DNA of 64,000 bases from a virus (IMGVR_UViG_3300032954_000005:1-64000); one strand, 5' to 3'; counted from the first letter of the stretch, positions 45,033-49,471 are shown. Numbers and translations: made by a program. Notes: generated from the letters alone by a model not told the origin.

Positions 45033-45437
45033 TATTTTGTGTACAACGCTGAGAAAGGGTTTAGAATTATCTTTCCTTACGGAATGGTTGTTCGGTTCGT
45101 TGAAAACAAAGGCAGGCGCGTAGGGCCCGAGAGAATCGGAGCCGCTCAGGGTGGTGCCTATCGTCGCGACGACGAGGGATGCAAGCGGGGCAGGCGCGGC
45201 CGGAATACGAAGCTGAAAAGCAAGACGCGGAGAATACGACGACGCGGGCGGCGCGAAAAACGGATGCTGTGAGCGAACGCGGGAGGCGAGGTCACGAAGG
45301 TCGACCTCAACGGCGGGAGCGGGCAATATGGTTCGGTCGCGGGGTGGGCGTACGGGTTGCGGACGTTGGCTGCTTTCAGTCGCACGAACTTTTCAAAACG
45401 TGTGAAGCCCCGCACCGGCATCGGGCGGGCAAATTTT

Positions 45438-45535
45438 GCAGAGGACGACCGCGGCGCAGACCGCGGCGGAATGCGCGGCCCAGGTTCCAAGCCCTGGGCG
45501 ACATTTAACCCCAAGCGACGCGGCGCACGTACCGC
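45438..45535 (+). ncRNA. Repeated structured RNA leader element, copy 1
   Basis: Conserved GCAGAGGA (45438-45445), a variable first stem (CCGCGG repeated around CGCAGA), AATGC, then a 7-bp hairpin GCCCAGG/CCTGGGC with loop TTCCAAGC (45478-45499), and a small third hairpin GCGG/CCGC with loop CGCACGTA (45520-45535). A ribosome site and the ATG at 45549 follow at once. See the finding on the five copies. Confidence 0.65.
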
Positions 45536-45548
45536 GAAGGAGAACAGT

Positions 45549-45815
45549 ATGATGAATCAATACAAGTGCAGCAACTGTCACAGCTCCAACCTTCACCAAA
45601 GCAAGAGCAGCGAGCACGACGTTGTCTGTAACGACTGCCACATGACGACGGACAAGGTCACTGCCCTGAAGGCGCCCTGGGCGTACTGCGGTTTCGACGA
45701 GGTTCACGTGCCGCAGCACGACGGGGCAGAGCGCATCATCACCCGAAAGCAGGCGAAGGCGGAGGGAATCAAGCTCGCGCCTTACAAGTATTTTTACACA
45801 GCTTTGAAGTTCTAA
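45549..45815 (+). CDS. Zinc-ribbon protein
   Basis: 88 aa from tandem ATGs at 45549/45552 with GAAGGAG upstream. CSNCHSSNLHQSKSSEHDVVCNDCH is a complete four-Cys zinc ribbon; the remainder (ERIITRKQAKAEGIKLAPYKYF) may be a DNA- or RNA-binding tail. Preceded and followed by copies of the structured RNA element. Confidence 0.6.
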   Translation: MMNQYKCSNCHSSNLHQSKSSEHDVVCNDCHMTTDKVTALKAPWAYCGFDEVHVPQHDGAERIITRKQAKAEGIKLAPYKYFYTALKF

Positions 45816-45817
45816 GC

Positions 45818-45917
45818 GCAGAGGACGACGATCGCCACGCGATCGTCGTAATGCGGCGCGCCGGTTCCAAGCCCGGCGGGTTCGTATAATAACGATGCGA
45901 CGCGGCGCACGTACCGC
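45818..45917 (+). ncRNA. Repeated structured RNA leader element, copy 2
   Basis: GCAGAGGA (45818-45825), then an 11-bp perfect stem 45825-45835/45839-45849 with a CAC loop, TAATGCGGC, then CGCCGG/CCGGCG around TTCCAAGC (45859-45878), and GCGG/CCGC around CGCACGTA (45902-45917). The SD and ATG of the helicase gene follow. Confidence 0.7.
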
Positions 45918-45930
45918 AGAGGAGAGCAAG

Positions 45931-47448
45931 ATGAACACAACGCAGTTCAGTCCGCTTCAGCAGCGCATCTTCAAGTTCGTCGCGGAGGAAACCGGGAACG
46001 CATCGATCGAGGCGGTCGCCGGGTCAGGCAAGACGACCACGATCGTGGCCGCCGCGTCGTACCTTCCGCCAACGTCGCGCAACCTCTTTCTGGCGTTCAA
46101 CAAGTCGATCGCCGAGGAGCTCGCGACACGCCTTCCCGCGCACGTCACGGCGAAGACGTTGAACAGCCTTGGGCACGGCGCGTGGGCCGCAAAGCTCCGC
46201 CCAGCCCGCCTAAAGCTCGACGCCAACAAGACGCGCGCCATCCTCGATAAGCGCGTCGTCGAGGCAGACAGAAAGCTGTACGGCTCCCTGGTGACGCGCC
46301 TCGTTGCGCTGGCGAAGTCCGCGGGCCTCGCACCCGCGGGTGCCCCAAACGCATATCCCCTGGTGGACGACACCCTCGATGCGTGGCTCGACATGATCGA
46401 GTACCACGACCTGGAGGTGCCCGAGGAGGGAAACGTCAACCGCGCGATCGACCTGGCGCGCAAGGTGCTCAGCGAGTCGATTCGGCAGGCGTTTCTTGGC
46501 TGCATCGACTTTGACGATCAGATCTACATGACGGTGGTCTACCGCGCTCCGATGAGCAGGTTTGACTTCGTGTTTGTCGATGAGGCGCAGGACCTTAACT
46601 GCATCCAGCACCAGCTGATTGCGATGGCAATCAAGTCGGGCGGTCGGCTCATCGCGGTGGGGGACCCCCGCCAGGCAATCTACGGCTTTCGTGGGGCGGA
46701 TGCGTCGAGCATGGAAAACCTGCAGCGGCGCTTTCGCACAGTAACGCTTCCGCTGTCGATCAGCTACCGCTGCCCACAGGCCGTGGTCCGCGAGGCGCAG
46801 AAGCTGGTTTCGCACATTCAGTCAAGCGAGACGGCGCCCGTCGGGGTTGTTGAAACGCTTGACGCGTACAACGCCGATACGTTTAACGACAGCGACGCAA
46901 TCGTGTGCCGCAACGCGCGACCCCTGGTCGCGCTCGCCTTCCAGCTGATTCGCGCCGGGCGTGGCTGCCGCGTCCTTGGGCGGGACATTGGCCAGGGCCT
47001 TCAGGCGCTCATAAAGAAGATGAACGCGGCCGACGTTGACGCGCTCGAGACCAAGCTTGACGCCTACCTCGACCGTGAAACGCGCCGCCTGCTCGCGAAG
47101 AACCAGGACGCGAAGGTCGCGGCGCTCGAGGACAAGGTCGACACCATCCGCCTGTTTATCGACCAGCTGGGCGAGGACGAGCGGACGATCGACGCGCTGT
47201 TTGGGAAGATCGACGCACTGTTCACCGACAACGGCCACGGAAAGCTTACGCTGTGCACCGTCCACAAGGCGAAGGGCCTCGAGTGGGAGCGCGTGTTCAT
47301 CCTCGACGCGCACCTCATGCCGTCGAAGTACGCGCGACAGGATTGGCAGCTGGCGCAGGAGACGAACATCCACTACGTGGCGATCACTCGCGCGAAGCGC
47401 GAGCTGCGCTACATCGACAGCGAAGGATTCAAAGCTAAGAAGCAGTAA
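45931..47448 (+). CDS. UvrD/Rep-like superfamily 1 helicase
   Basis: 505 aa from the ATG at 45931 (GAGGAG upstream; an in-frame start at 45895 lies within the RNA leader). Walker A AVAGSGKTT (28-36), FLAFNKSIAEEL, DFVFVDEAQD, VGDPRQAIYGFRGAD, LPLSISYRCP, TVHKAKGLEWERVFIL and HYVAITRAKRELRYI are the SF1A motifs in order. It is a 3'-5' DNA helicase, likely for replication restart or recombination. It is shorter than host UvrD (about 720 aa), as is common in phages. Confidence 0.9.
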   Translation: MNTTQFSPLQQRIFKFVAEETGNASIEAVAGSGKTTTIVAAASYLPPTSRNLFLAFNKSIAEELATRLPAHVTAKTLNSLGHGAWAAKLRPARLKLDANKTRAILDKRVVEADRKLYGSLVTRLVALAKSAGLAPAGAPNAYPLVDDTLDAWLDMIEYHDLEVPEEGNVNRAIDLARKVLSESIRQAFLGCIDFDDQIYMTVVYRAPMSRFDFVFVDEAQDLNCIQHQLIAMAIKSGGRLIAVGDPRQAIYGFRGADASSMENLQRRFRTVTLPLSISYRCPQAVVREAQKLVSHIQSSETAPVGVVETLDAYNADTFNDSDAIVCRNARPLVALAFQLIRAGRGCRVLGRDIGQGLQALIKKMNAADVDALETKLDAYLDRETRRLLAKNQDAKVAALEDKVDTIRLFIDQLGEDERTIDALFGKIDALFTDNGHGKLTLCTVHKAKGLEWERVFILDAHLMPSKYARQDWQLAQETNIHYVAITRAKRELRYIDSEGFKAKKQ

Positions 47449-47454
47449 AGGGAC

Positions 47455-47548
47455 GCAGAGGACGCCGGCGATCGCCGGCGTAATGCGGCAGGCTGGGTTC
47501 CAAGCCCCCGGCGCGCAGAACACCAAGCGAGGCGGCGCGTGTACCGCC
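47455..47548 (+). ncRNA. Repeated structured RNA leader element, copy 3
   Basis: GCAGAGGA (47455-47462), 8-bp stem ACGCCGGC/GCCGGCGT with a GATC loop (47462-47481), TAATGCGGC, a second hairpin with loop TTCCAAGC where one pair is G-U and one base bulges (47492-47511), and a third hairpin GGCGG/CCGCC with loop CGCGTGTA (47531-47548). Confidence 0.65.
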
Positions 47549-47561
47549 GAAGGAGAATGAA

Positions 47562-47741
47562 GTGACTAGCAAGCAAAAGAGCCAAAACTTCAAGCTGCGT
47601 ACAGCCTTGAAGCTGATCAAGCTGCACATCACGGAGGAGGCGAACGATCAAAACCGCCACCTTCACAACGCCGTTCAGCTCATCGTAGACGTGGCGAGGG
47701 AGCATAACCTTTTAATTGAGGAGGTGCGCCGTGCAGGTTGA
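47562..47741 (+). CDS. Small helical protein (59 aa)
   Basis: Read from the GTG at 47562 with GAAGGAG upstream and the copy-3 leader before it. Helical, basic start (KLRTALKLIKLHITEEANDQ) and acidic end. Overlaps the next gene by 11 bases. Confidence 0.45.
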   Translation: MTSKQKSQNFKLRTALKLIKLHITEEANDQNRHLHNAVQLIVDVAREHNLLIEEVRRAG

Positions 47742-48222
47742 GATCGGGCAGGGCGGCAGGCTTACCACCGCCGCGGACGCGCTGAACTTCATCCTGGCCG
47801 GGAACGCCGTGTTCACGCTGGTGTCCCGGGCGACGAGCGCGCGGTACACCTACAAGGTGTCGCGCGCGGTCGACCGCGTGGGCAGGCCCAGCGCGACGCT
47901 GTTCAAGGAAGACACCGCCGGCCCGGTCTACTTCGTTTCGCTCCTGGCCGGGCCGGACAACACGGCGGACTACGTCTACCTTGGAATCATCCGGGACGGC
48001 GCGTTCCGTCTGACGCAGAAGAGCAAGCTGACAACCGCGTCGAAGCCCGTCCAGGCGTTCACGTGGACGCTCACGCGTCTGCTCCTCAGCCACCTTCCCC
48101 TGAACGTCGAGGTGTGGCACACGGGCAGGTGCGGGCGCTGCGCGCGGCTCCTCACCGTACCCGAAAGCGTGGCGCGCGGCATCGGCCCAGAGTGCGCGGC
48201 GCGAATGGATGGCGCCGCGTGA
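47731..48222 (+). CDS. DUF6011-like protein
   Basis: 163 aa from the GTG at 47731 (GAGGAGG upstream). A beta-rich N-terminal part (ADALNFILAGNAVFTLVSRATS; YFVSLLAGPDNTADYVYLGII) ends in GRCGRCARLLTVPESVARGIGPECAARM, the DUF6011 zinc-binding tail found on many phage and bacterial proteins. Role unknown. Confidence 0.65.
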   Translation: MQVEIGQGGRLTTAADALNFILAGNAVFTLVSRATSARYTYKVSRAVDRVGRPSATLFKEDTAGPVYFVSLLAGPDNTADYVYLGIIRDGAFRLTQKSKLTTASKPVQAFTWTLTRLLLSHLPLNVEVWHTGRCGRCARLLTVPESVARGIGPECAARMDGAA

Positions 48223-48530
48223 GCGGGCTGTATTTGCTCCACTTCGAGCCGCGGTATAGGCACGCCGGGCACTACCTTGGTTACGCAAAAAACATCTCCC
48301 AACGTGTTGCAGAGCATCGTGCGGGAAGAGCGCGAACGCCGCTGACTACGGCCGCGGCGCGCGCCGGGTGCTGGATGTTCCTGGTGCGCACGTGGGAGGG
48401 CGGGACACGCGACGACGAGCGCAGGCTCAAGGGCACGTCGCGCCCAACTACGGGAAGAACGGGCAGCCTCGCACGCCTCTGCCCGGCGTGCGCGGCGCTC
48501 AAACAGAAAGGAGAACGAAGTGGAAGTTGA
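48219..48530 (+). CDS. GIY-YIG nuclease-like protein
   Basis: 103 aa from a GTG overlapping the upstream stop. GLYLLHFEPRYRHAGHYLGY and ISQRVAEHRAG match the first half of the GIY-YIG fold (Tyr-Leu, Tyr-Leu-Gly, Arg, His). The C-terminal half has CPACAALKQK. It may be a homing enzyme or a small repair nuclease. The usual catalytic Glu is not certain. Confidence 0.6.
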   Translation: MSGLYLLHFEPRYRHAGHYLGYAKNISQRVAEHRAGRARTPLTTAAARAGCWMFLVRTWEGGTRDDERRLKGTSRPTTGRTGSLARLCPACAALKQKGERSGS

Positions 48531-48759
48531 GCAGCTGATCGAATTTTTATCGACCGTAACAGACAAGGAGGTGCGCATGGCGCAGCAGACGTTGTGCAGG
48601 GGGCCTGCGGGTATTCACCGCATCACGCGGGAGGGCGTCGCGCCCGGCTACCGCTGGCGCTGCGTGGACTGCAACGGGCAGTTCAAGATCGCGCCATCAG
48701 CCTACAACCTAGACCTGGCGCGCGAGCGTCAGCTTAACCAAACAACGAAAGCGAGGTAG
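48520..48759 (+). CDS. Small hypothetical protein with CxxC
   Basis: 79 aa from a GTG with AAAGGAG upstream. N-terminal helix (VEQLIEFLSTVTDKEVRM), then GYRWRCVDCNGQFKIAPSAYN, a possible zinc knuckle. Unknown. Confidence 0.5.
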   Translation: MEVEQLIEFLSTVTDKEVRMAQQTLCRGPAGIHRITREGVAPGYRWRCVDCNGQFKIAPSAYNLDLARERQLNQTTKAR

Positions 48760-48760
48760 C

Positions 48761-48943
48761 ATGAACGTCTCAATCAAGAACGGTGTTCTCACGATCACCA
48801 TCCCCGTCAACAAGGACCCGCTCCCGGAGTCGAAGTCGAAGAAATCGCTCGTCGTCGCCTCCACCAACGGAAACGTCGTGACCAAGGAGCTTGTCAACGG
48901 CAAGCCCCTGGTCATCGGCCTCAACGCCTACGTGAAGGTGTAA
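48761..48943 (+). CDS. Small beta-strand protein
   Basis: 60 aa. A compact beta protein (NVSIKNGVLTITIPV, SLVVASTNGNVVTKELV, LVIGLNAYVK) of a kind common in phage early regions, often with transcriptional or unknown role. The fourth RNA element follows. Confidence 0.55.
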   Translation: MNVSIKNGVLTITIPVNKDPLPESKSKKSLVVASTNGNVVTKELVNGKPLVIGLNAYVKV

Positions 48944-48947
48944 CTTC

Positions 48948-48988
48948 GCAGAGGACGGCGCGCGCAGTACGGCGCGCCGTAATGCGGC
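48948..48988 (+). ncRNA. Repeated structured RNA leader element, copy 4 (short form)
   Basis: GCAGAGGA (48948-48955), 9-bp stem ACGGCGCGC/GCGCGCCGT around GCAGTACG (48955-48980), TAATGCGGC. It lacks the TTCCAAGC hairpin. The 44 bases 48947-48990 are identical to 49187-49230 of copy 5. Confidence 0.65.
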
Positions 48989-49024
48989 GGAAAATAAGGC
49001 GAAGCTTAAGCTAAAGGAGGCAGT

Positions 49025-49186
49025 GTGATTACAGAGCTGAAAGCCGTGGAAACTGCTATGCGCAGCTTTATCAGCAATTGGAGCCAAGGGCTAAAAGATG
49101 ATGGGCTTTTCGACAAAGCTCGTGCGATCGCTGACAGCCTTTCAAATCTAGCTGCTGCGATTGAATCCAGCGAGGACAACGTATAA
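49025..49186 (+). CDS. Small helical protein (53 aa)
   Basis: From the GTG at 49025 with AAAGGAGG upstream; lies between RNA elements 4 and 5. Helical (ELKAVETAMRSFISNWSQGL), unknown function. Confidence 0.45.
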   Translation: MITELKAVETAMRSFISNWSQGLKDDGLFDKARAIADSLSNLAAAIESSEDNV

Positions 49187-49187
49187 C

Positions 49188-49250
49188 GCAGAGGACGGCG
49201 CGCGCAGTACGGCGCGCCGTAATGCGGCGGTCGCGGTTCCAAGCCCGCGC
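49188..49250 (+). ncRNA. Repeated structured RNA leader element, copy 5
   Basis: Same first hairpin as copy 4 (49195-49220), then TAATGCGGC and a second hairpin CGCGG/CCGCG with loop TTCCAAGC (49232-49249). Confidence 0.7.
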
Positions 49251-49279
49251 ACGCAGAGCCTAGAAAAGGAGGTAGTACA

Positions 49280-49471
49280 ATGTACCAGCGAATCATAAGG
49301 CAGACCCTGGGCTGTAACGCGCTGATGGCGGCGCTCGTCGAGGGCGTCATCCGCCAGGAGGCCCCCAACCACAACCTGGACGCGCTGTCGCGCGTCGAAC
49401 TCGAGGACGCGATCGTGACGGCGTACCGCGTCGTCGAGTACGGCTACAACGTCGTCATCGGGGAGGCGTAA
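49280..49471 (+). CDS. Small hypothetical protein
   Basis: 63 aa with AAAAGGAGG upstream and RNA copy 5 before it. Helical (LGCNALMAALVEGVIRQEAPN; ELEDAIVTAYRVVEYGY). Unknown. Confidence 0.5.
   Translation: MYQRIIRQTLGCNALMAALVEGVIRQEAPNHNLDALSRVELEDAIVTAYRVVEYGYNVVIGEA

Follow-up and report, generated by a model that had tools for sequence, protein, structure and literature searches.

A repeated RNA element that lies before phage genes in a stretch of viral DNA of 64,000 nucleotides (IMGVR_UViG_3300032954_000005:1-64000, hereafter the window) belongs to a known class of self-cutting RNA, the type-P5 twister ribozymes (Rfam RF02684). Five copies are present on one strand, the fold covaries across database matches, and copies lie between genes, in arrays, in many phages. 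Their main role is rather probably intercistronic self-cleavage, which would divide a polycistronic phage mRNA and leave hairpins at both new ends. An earlier reading of the window (the original prediction) had placed the five copies no more than 1 nt from the Rfam boundaries (45437, 45817, 47454, 48947 and 49187) and had recognized a conserved RNA fold with compensatory changes before phage genes. It had also held that no known RNA family has these features; this is contradicted by the Rfam match, the result that the prediction itself had named as decisive against it, and a novel RNA family is ruled out.

Identity and fold of the five copies

The window sequence was compared with Rfam 15, in which the curated (gathering) cutoff of RF02684 is 37.6 bits. 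The cutoff was passed by copies 5 (58.8 bits), 2 (55.2 bits) and 3 (52.0 bits), and copies 1 (35.2 bits) and 4 (34.3 bits, with L4 replaced) were matched just under it using a permissive threshold. The E-values, from 1e-10 to 2e-4 for all of Rfam against the 5.8-kb region, are far beyond chance. At the permissive threshold the matches extend over 45437-45496, 45817-45876, 47454-47509, 48947-49007 and 49187-49248 (plus strand). A sixth copy was not found in the complete 77,248-nt virus record containing the window. No riboswitch was found in the window at the gathering threshold, the matches at E up to 10 being weak and at chance level. The copies are as follows.

45437-45502, plus strand: copy 1, divergent type-P5 twister; expected cut between 45469 and 45470
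45817-45882, plus strand: copy 2, intact type-P5 twister preceding the helicase gene; expected cut between 45849 and 45850
47454-47514, plus strand: copy 3, intact type-P5 twister just past the helicase gene; expected cut between 47481 and 47482
48947-48990, plus strand: copy 4, limited to the 5' part (P2, P1, cut site and T2 strand)
49187-49254, plus strand: copy 5, intact type-P5 twister; expected cut between 49220 and 49221

In the cmscan alignment P2, P1 and P4 occur in the type-P5 order. P2 is formed by GCA with UGC, and P1 is the variable perfect stem, a closed hairpin in this permutation. Non-standard pairs are absent from copies 2 and 5, two are found in P4 of copy 3, and copy 4 has no P4/L4. 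The sequence TTCCAAGC is loop L4 of P4; its UCC pairs back with the GGA of GAGGA, giving the T1 pseudoknot (GAG-side loop with L4) as GGA/UCC in copies 1, 2, 3 and 5. The T2 pseudoknot, in which the GGC after AAUGC pairs with GCC, was identified by inspection in copies 2, 3 and 5; it is shortened in copy 1 and absent from copy 4. Cutting is expected just 5' of the A in AAUGC (45850, 47482 and 49221 in the intact copies), and the base before this A is U in copies 2-5 and G in copy 1, consistent with the N-A site of the family, which is most often U-A. The copies have the P2, P1 and P4 helices, the core GAG...NAAUGC...AAGCC (cut between N and A), T1, T2 and phage setting of RF02684. They differ in T1, which is GGG/CCC in the family consensus; copies 2, 3 and 5 are otherwise structurally no different.

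The sequence features noted in the original prediction can be read in these terms. The arrangement of GCAGAGGA, a variable perfect stem and AATGCGGC is present in copies 2-5 and not in copy 1, which reads AATGCGCGGC. The TTCCAAGC hairpin does occur in four of the five copies, copy 4 being without it. Variation of the stems does not extend to copies 4 and 5, which have the same stem as part of an exact duplication of 44 nt. Pairing of GCAGAGGA with AATGCGGC had been likened to a loop-E or kink-turn motif; this was ruled out, as GCA/TGC is helix P2 and the remaining bases belong to T1, T2 and the active site of the known twister core.

Covariation was measured for T1, a pairing that the structure line of RF02684 does not include. 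The search pattern had CGCAGA, AATGCGGC, GGT and AAGCC fixed and T1 free on both sides, and gave 205 distinct matches in viral contigs and one-per-species prokaryote genomes, including copies in loci already collected. T1 was perfectly paired in 191 of the 205, compared with 75.7 (sd 5.2, maximum 99 of 2000) after permuting the L4 side. About 20 letter combinations were represented (GUG/CAC, GGA/UCC, GCA/UGC, GGG/CCC, UGG/CCA, AAG/CUU and others). Redundancy in this set was reduced by removing exact duplicates only; kinship inflates the counts, not the variety. P1 pairing is undercounted in it, the stem of GTG-type copies being one base out of register.

The whole fixed core is kept in copies 2, 3 and 5. 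In copy 1 the base at -1 is G in place of U, and AATGCGCGG shortens P2/T2. The orthologue of copy 1 in the nearest relative found, IMGVR_UViG_3300031251_000054 (G022), also has AATGCGCGG but has U at -1, so that the shortened P2/T2 is inherited and the G is a change in a single lineage. Among 97 matches with a clear P1 the base at -1 is T in 75, C in 16, G in five and A in one; since G does occur there, copy 1 may still cut, although probably slowly. Copy 4 has neither P4/L4 nor its TTCCAAGC, a different sequence following its first 44 nt, and is presumably inactive.

Intercistronic position and proposed cleavage of the mRNA

Position was analysed for 213 copies, non-redundant by their flanks, scoring the longest upstream open reading frame (ORF). 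This ORF ends within -150 to +30 nt in 188 of the 213 copies, and for 75 of these 188 the distance from its stop codon to the ribozyme is 0-1 nt. For the 161 copies with both neighbours found, the medians are 1 nt to the upstream stop and 34 nt from the end of the pattern to the next start. In the window, copy 2 begins 1 nt past the stop codon of the ORF at 45549-45815, copy 3 begins 5 nt past that of the helicase gene, and copy 5 directly follows that of a 53-amino-acid (53-aa) ORF. It can safely be stated that the intergenic gap has room for little beyond the ribozyme and a ribosome site, and that these lie in the sense orientation relative to both flanking genes. GAGUG-A, the most frequent T1 variant, includes a UGA that can be in frame, and 14 copies of the 213 set have a longest upstream ORF that ends 10 nt inside the ribozyme; the upstream gene may then take its stop codon from the ribozyme.

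In the mechanism that we propose, the ribozymes (copies 2, 3 and 5 intact, copy 1 probably slow and copy 4 dead) lie between the genes of one phage operon. Each would fold during passage of the RNA polymerase, forming P2, the P1 hairpin, P4 and the T1 and T2 pseudoknots, and would cut itself 5' of the A in AAUGC. The upstream message would then end with its stop codon and the stable P1 hairpin, carrying a 2',3'-cyclic phosphate, and the downstream message would start with a 5'-hydroxyl AAUGC followed by the P4 hairpin and the ribosome site. A polycistronic transcript would in this way be divided into gene-sized mRNAs whose new ends all carry a hairpin, as with the engineered insulator RiboJ. 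The activity of the copies, their cleavage during infection and an effect on stability or expression are inferred. Folding predictions for the ribosome-site region differ little between precursor and cleaved product, which suggests that the cut serves to separate cistrons and not to switch the ribosome site; cleavage-dependent exposure of that site was rejected, as the two folds show no clear difference. Among the functions offered in the original prediction, a processing site is the one supported, and the analysis gave no evidence of a leader that binds a ligand or of a target for a protein.

In RiboJ a ribozyme and the hairpin left before the ribosome site raise transcript abundance about twofold in Escherichia coli (PMC6206723). 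As is proposed for the present arrays, the cut places a hairpin immediately in front of the ribosome site that serves the following gene; RiboJ, however, is a synthetic combination of a hammerhead and a hairpin placed after promoters, whereas the elements described here are natural twisters between genes. The Theta ribozymes of gut phages (PMC10879173) are likewise small, phage-encoded and self-cleaving and process phage transcripts, but they have the hepatitis delta virus (HDV) fold and lie at tRNA 3' ends, and no tRNA was found in the window using ARAGORN. The glmS ribozyme is also a self-cleaving RNA in front of a gene; it requires glucosamine-6-phosphate and its cleavage represses, whereas a ligand requirement is not indicated for the present twisters.

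Several observations weigh against intercistronic cutting as the main role. A 5'-hydroxyl end need not stabilize an mRNA, cleavage by the glmS ribozyme leading to mRNA degradation (reviewed in PMC6154101). Given the degenerate state of copies 1 and 4, cutting is not needed at every junction, and several genes in 47562-48943 have no ribozyme between them. Random placement within the same gaps gives a distance of 0-1 nt to the stop codon in 46.4 copies (sd 3.6, maximum 60 of 5000), compared with 67 observed. Short gaps alone therefore yield most of the abutments, the real preference for the stop codon is modest, and abutment was downgraded as a strong signal by itself.

Arrays, the insertion scar and other explanations

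G022 carries eight copies inside 6 kb, all on one strand. It shares 86% identity with the window over the helicase segment. The first copies of the two genomes are orthologous, as are the neighbours of the last copies, and most genes in between differ. At least 15 other records, mostly phage, contain three or more copies (range 3-8) at gene spacing and on one strand, with a single exception. One of these, a Clostridia metagenome-assembled genome (JAFYOX010000031.1, L455) and not a phage contig, contains four type-P5 twisters on one strand, 490-720 nt apart, probably a prophage array in a bacterial genome. RF02684 matches of 20-30 bits (L281, L282 and others) fall in phage records with TAATGCAGCC...ATAAATGCAGAGGAC and similar multi-copy clusters, four copies in G002; most of them are apparently type-P1 twisters, followed downstream by ATAAATGCAGAGGAC. 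That such ribozymes cluster, with each other and close to Mu-like phage genes, has been described before, and the role of bacterial and phage twisters has been called unknown or speculative (PMC10085705; PMC5408937).

The leaders that follow the ribozymes are far more alike within one genome (19.7) than across genomes (9.7), which suggests that ribozyme and leader multiply together. One example of a leader shared within a genome is the third hairpin, GCGGCGCRYGTACCGC, which had been reported after three of the copies and is found as exact counterparts after copies 1, 2 and 3 only.

45520-45535, plus strand: third hairpin, leader of copy 1
45902-45917, plus strand: third hairpin, leader of copy 2
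47532-47547, plus strand: third hairpin, leader of copy 3

Exact comparison shows that 44 nt are identical between copies 4 and 5, and this repeat sets the junctions of an insert.

48991-49230, plus strand: insert between the exact 44-nt repeats, 240 nt, 52.5% GC
49025-49186, plus strand: 53-aa ORF inside the insert

The 53-aa ORF has a GC content of 48.1%, compared with 62.9% in its surroundings, and gave no family match. The most economical interpretation is that one ribozyme received an insertion, with duplication of 44 nt, and the 240-nt segment looks like a recent gene gain inside a ribozyme.

Such a scar is what would be expected if the ribozymes were seams of gene exchange, at which a duplicated ribozyme and leader give small accessory genes homology or a tolerated joint and cutting insulates the newcomer. 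We regard this as a reasonable possibility that nevertheless falls short of even odds. Besides the GC-poor one-ORF insert flanked by the repeated 5' part of a ribozyme, it would account for the first and last ribozymes keeping their neighbours in the window and G022 while most genes between them differ, and for leaders that are alike within a genome. The P1 stems are, however, unlike in most copies, which limits homologous recombination; a single insertion scar has been observed, and the duplication may be plain slippage or end-joining. A different use of the cut is that the freed 5' end, AAUGCGG, is captured by a CCGCAUU-like element before the ribosome site, the resulting 5'-terminal stem blocking re-ligation and decay. 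Complements of at least 6 nt to AATGCGG occur within 60 nt downstream in 17 cases (4.8 expected), six control heptamers being without excess; the pairing probability of the 5' end is 0.473 compared with 0.390 in shuffles (Wilcoxon p 3e-8), and one G021 copy with AATGTGG has CCACATT. Nine further AATGTGG copies showed no matching element, those that have it are a minority possibly from few related phages, and in the window there is a complement of 5 nt (TGCGG/CCGCA) at copy 2 only, where a local hairpin competes. CCGCATT capture was accordingly downgraded from a general to a minority feature, and we think it unlikely as an explanation of the arrays.

Slightly less likely still is regulated cleavage, in which a ribosome that terminates translation of the upstream gene would sit on CGCAGAGG and hold up folding, cutting thereby reporting upstream translation. 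A first ribozyme base 0-1 nt past the stop codon, as in the 75 copies above, lies within the expected footprint of a terminating ribosome, but compact spacing explains most of this proximity and twisters cut fast. That the copies are functionless, or non-catalytic relics kept only as hairpins, is very improbable: copies 1 and 4 are degenerate, but the fixed core is intact in the other three, and T1, which covaries strongly over about 200 copies, is a tertiary contact required by the ribozyme fold and not by simple hairpins.

Intercistronic cutting may be carried further, with more hesitation than for any gene-exchange seam. The accessory operons of some phages might be arrays with a separate twister ahead of nearly every small gene; as natural insulators these would give newly acquired genes their own mRNA ends, and genes would be gained and lost at ribozyme boundaries; here copy 1 might also trim the 3' end of a structured RNA of about 350 nt. 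Arrays punctuating genes at a median of 1 nt from the stop codon, with one insertion scar, provide a concrete setting for cutting and for insulating accessory genes. If this is true, phages naturally use what engineers built as RiboJ.

Neighbouring genes and the region before copy 1

The host genome is that of an uncultured tailed phage, and other parts of the window carry genes for DNA polymerase, primase and baseplate. Copies 1-5 are followed, in order, by an 88-aa zinc-ribbon-like ORF, a UvrD/REP helicase gene and ORFs of 59, 53 and 63 aa.

45549-45815, plus strand: ORF, 88 aa, weak zinc-ribbon-like match (Pfam PF09723, E 0.0013, under its cutoff)
45931-47448, plus strand: UvrD/REP-type superfamily 1 DNA helicase, 505 aa (PF00580, 2.8e-23; phrog_1967, 3.3e-108)
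49280-49471, plus strand: ORF, 63 aa, downstream of copy 5, 56% identity to a G022 ORF

The G022 counterpart of the 63-aa ORF is likewise downstream of the last ribozyme of that genome. The helicase gene was rejected as the carrier of the ribozyme: no type-P5 twister was found in the 47 records that contain relatives of the helicase (32-41% identity), and the ribozymes therefore do not travel with the helicase family. Relatives of the ORF at 48761-48943 were found at six loci, none of which has a ribozyme. A small ORF at 48219-48530 has a weak GIY-YIG nuclease match (E 0.0015, under the Pfam cutoff) and might encode a free-standing endonuclease of the homing type close to the ribozyme array.

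A conserved region directly precedes copy 1.

45085-45436, plus strand: non-coding region of about 350 nt, A/G-rich, 76% DNA identity to G022

Its G022 counterpart (L270:5063-5422) also precedes the first twister. The region has no Rfam match, and among viral contigs a conserved 18-nt string from it matches only G022. The consensus fold of the window and G022 sequences has an energy of -95.3 kcal/mol, compared with -76.1 (sd 4.9, lowest -87.2) in 60 column shuffles, and contains 13 doubly changed pairs, compared with 5.6 (sd 2.5, maximum 14) in the shuffles; single-sequence folds are not unusual. The region is probably structured and, on the basis of these two sequences, may be a structured RNA with its 3' end made by copy 1. 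Upstream of it (around 45010) lies an AT-rich stretch with a shared ATAAAGAAAATAAA.

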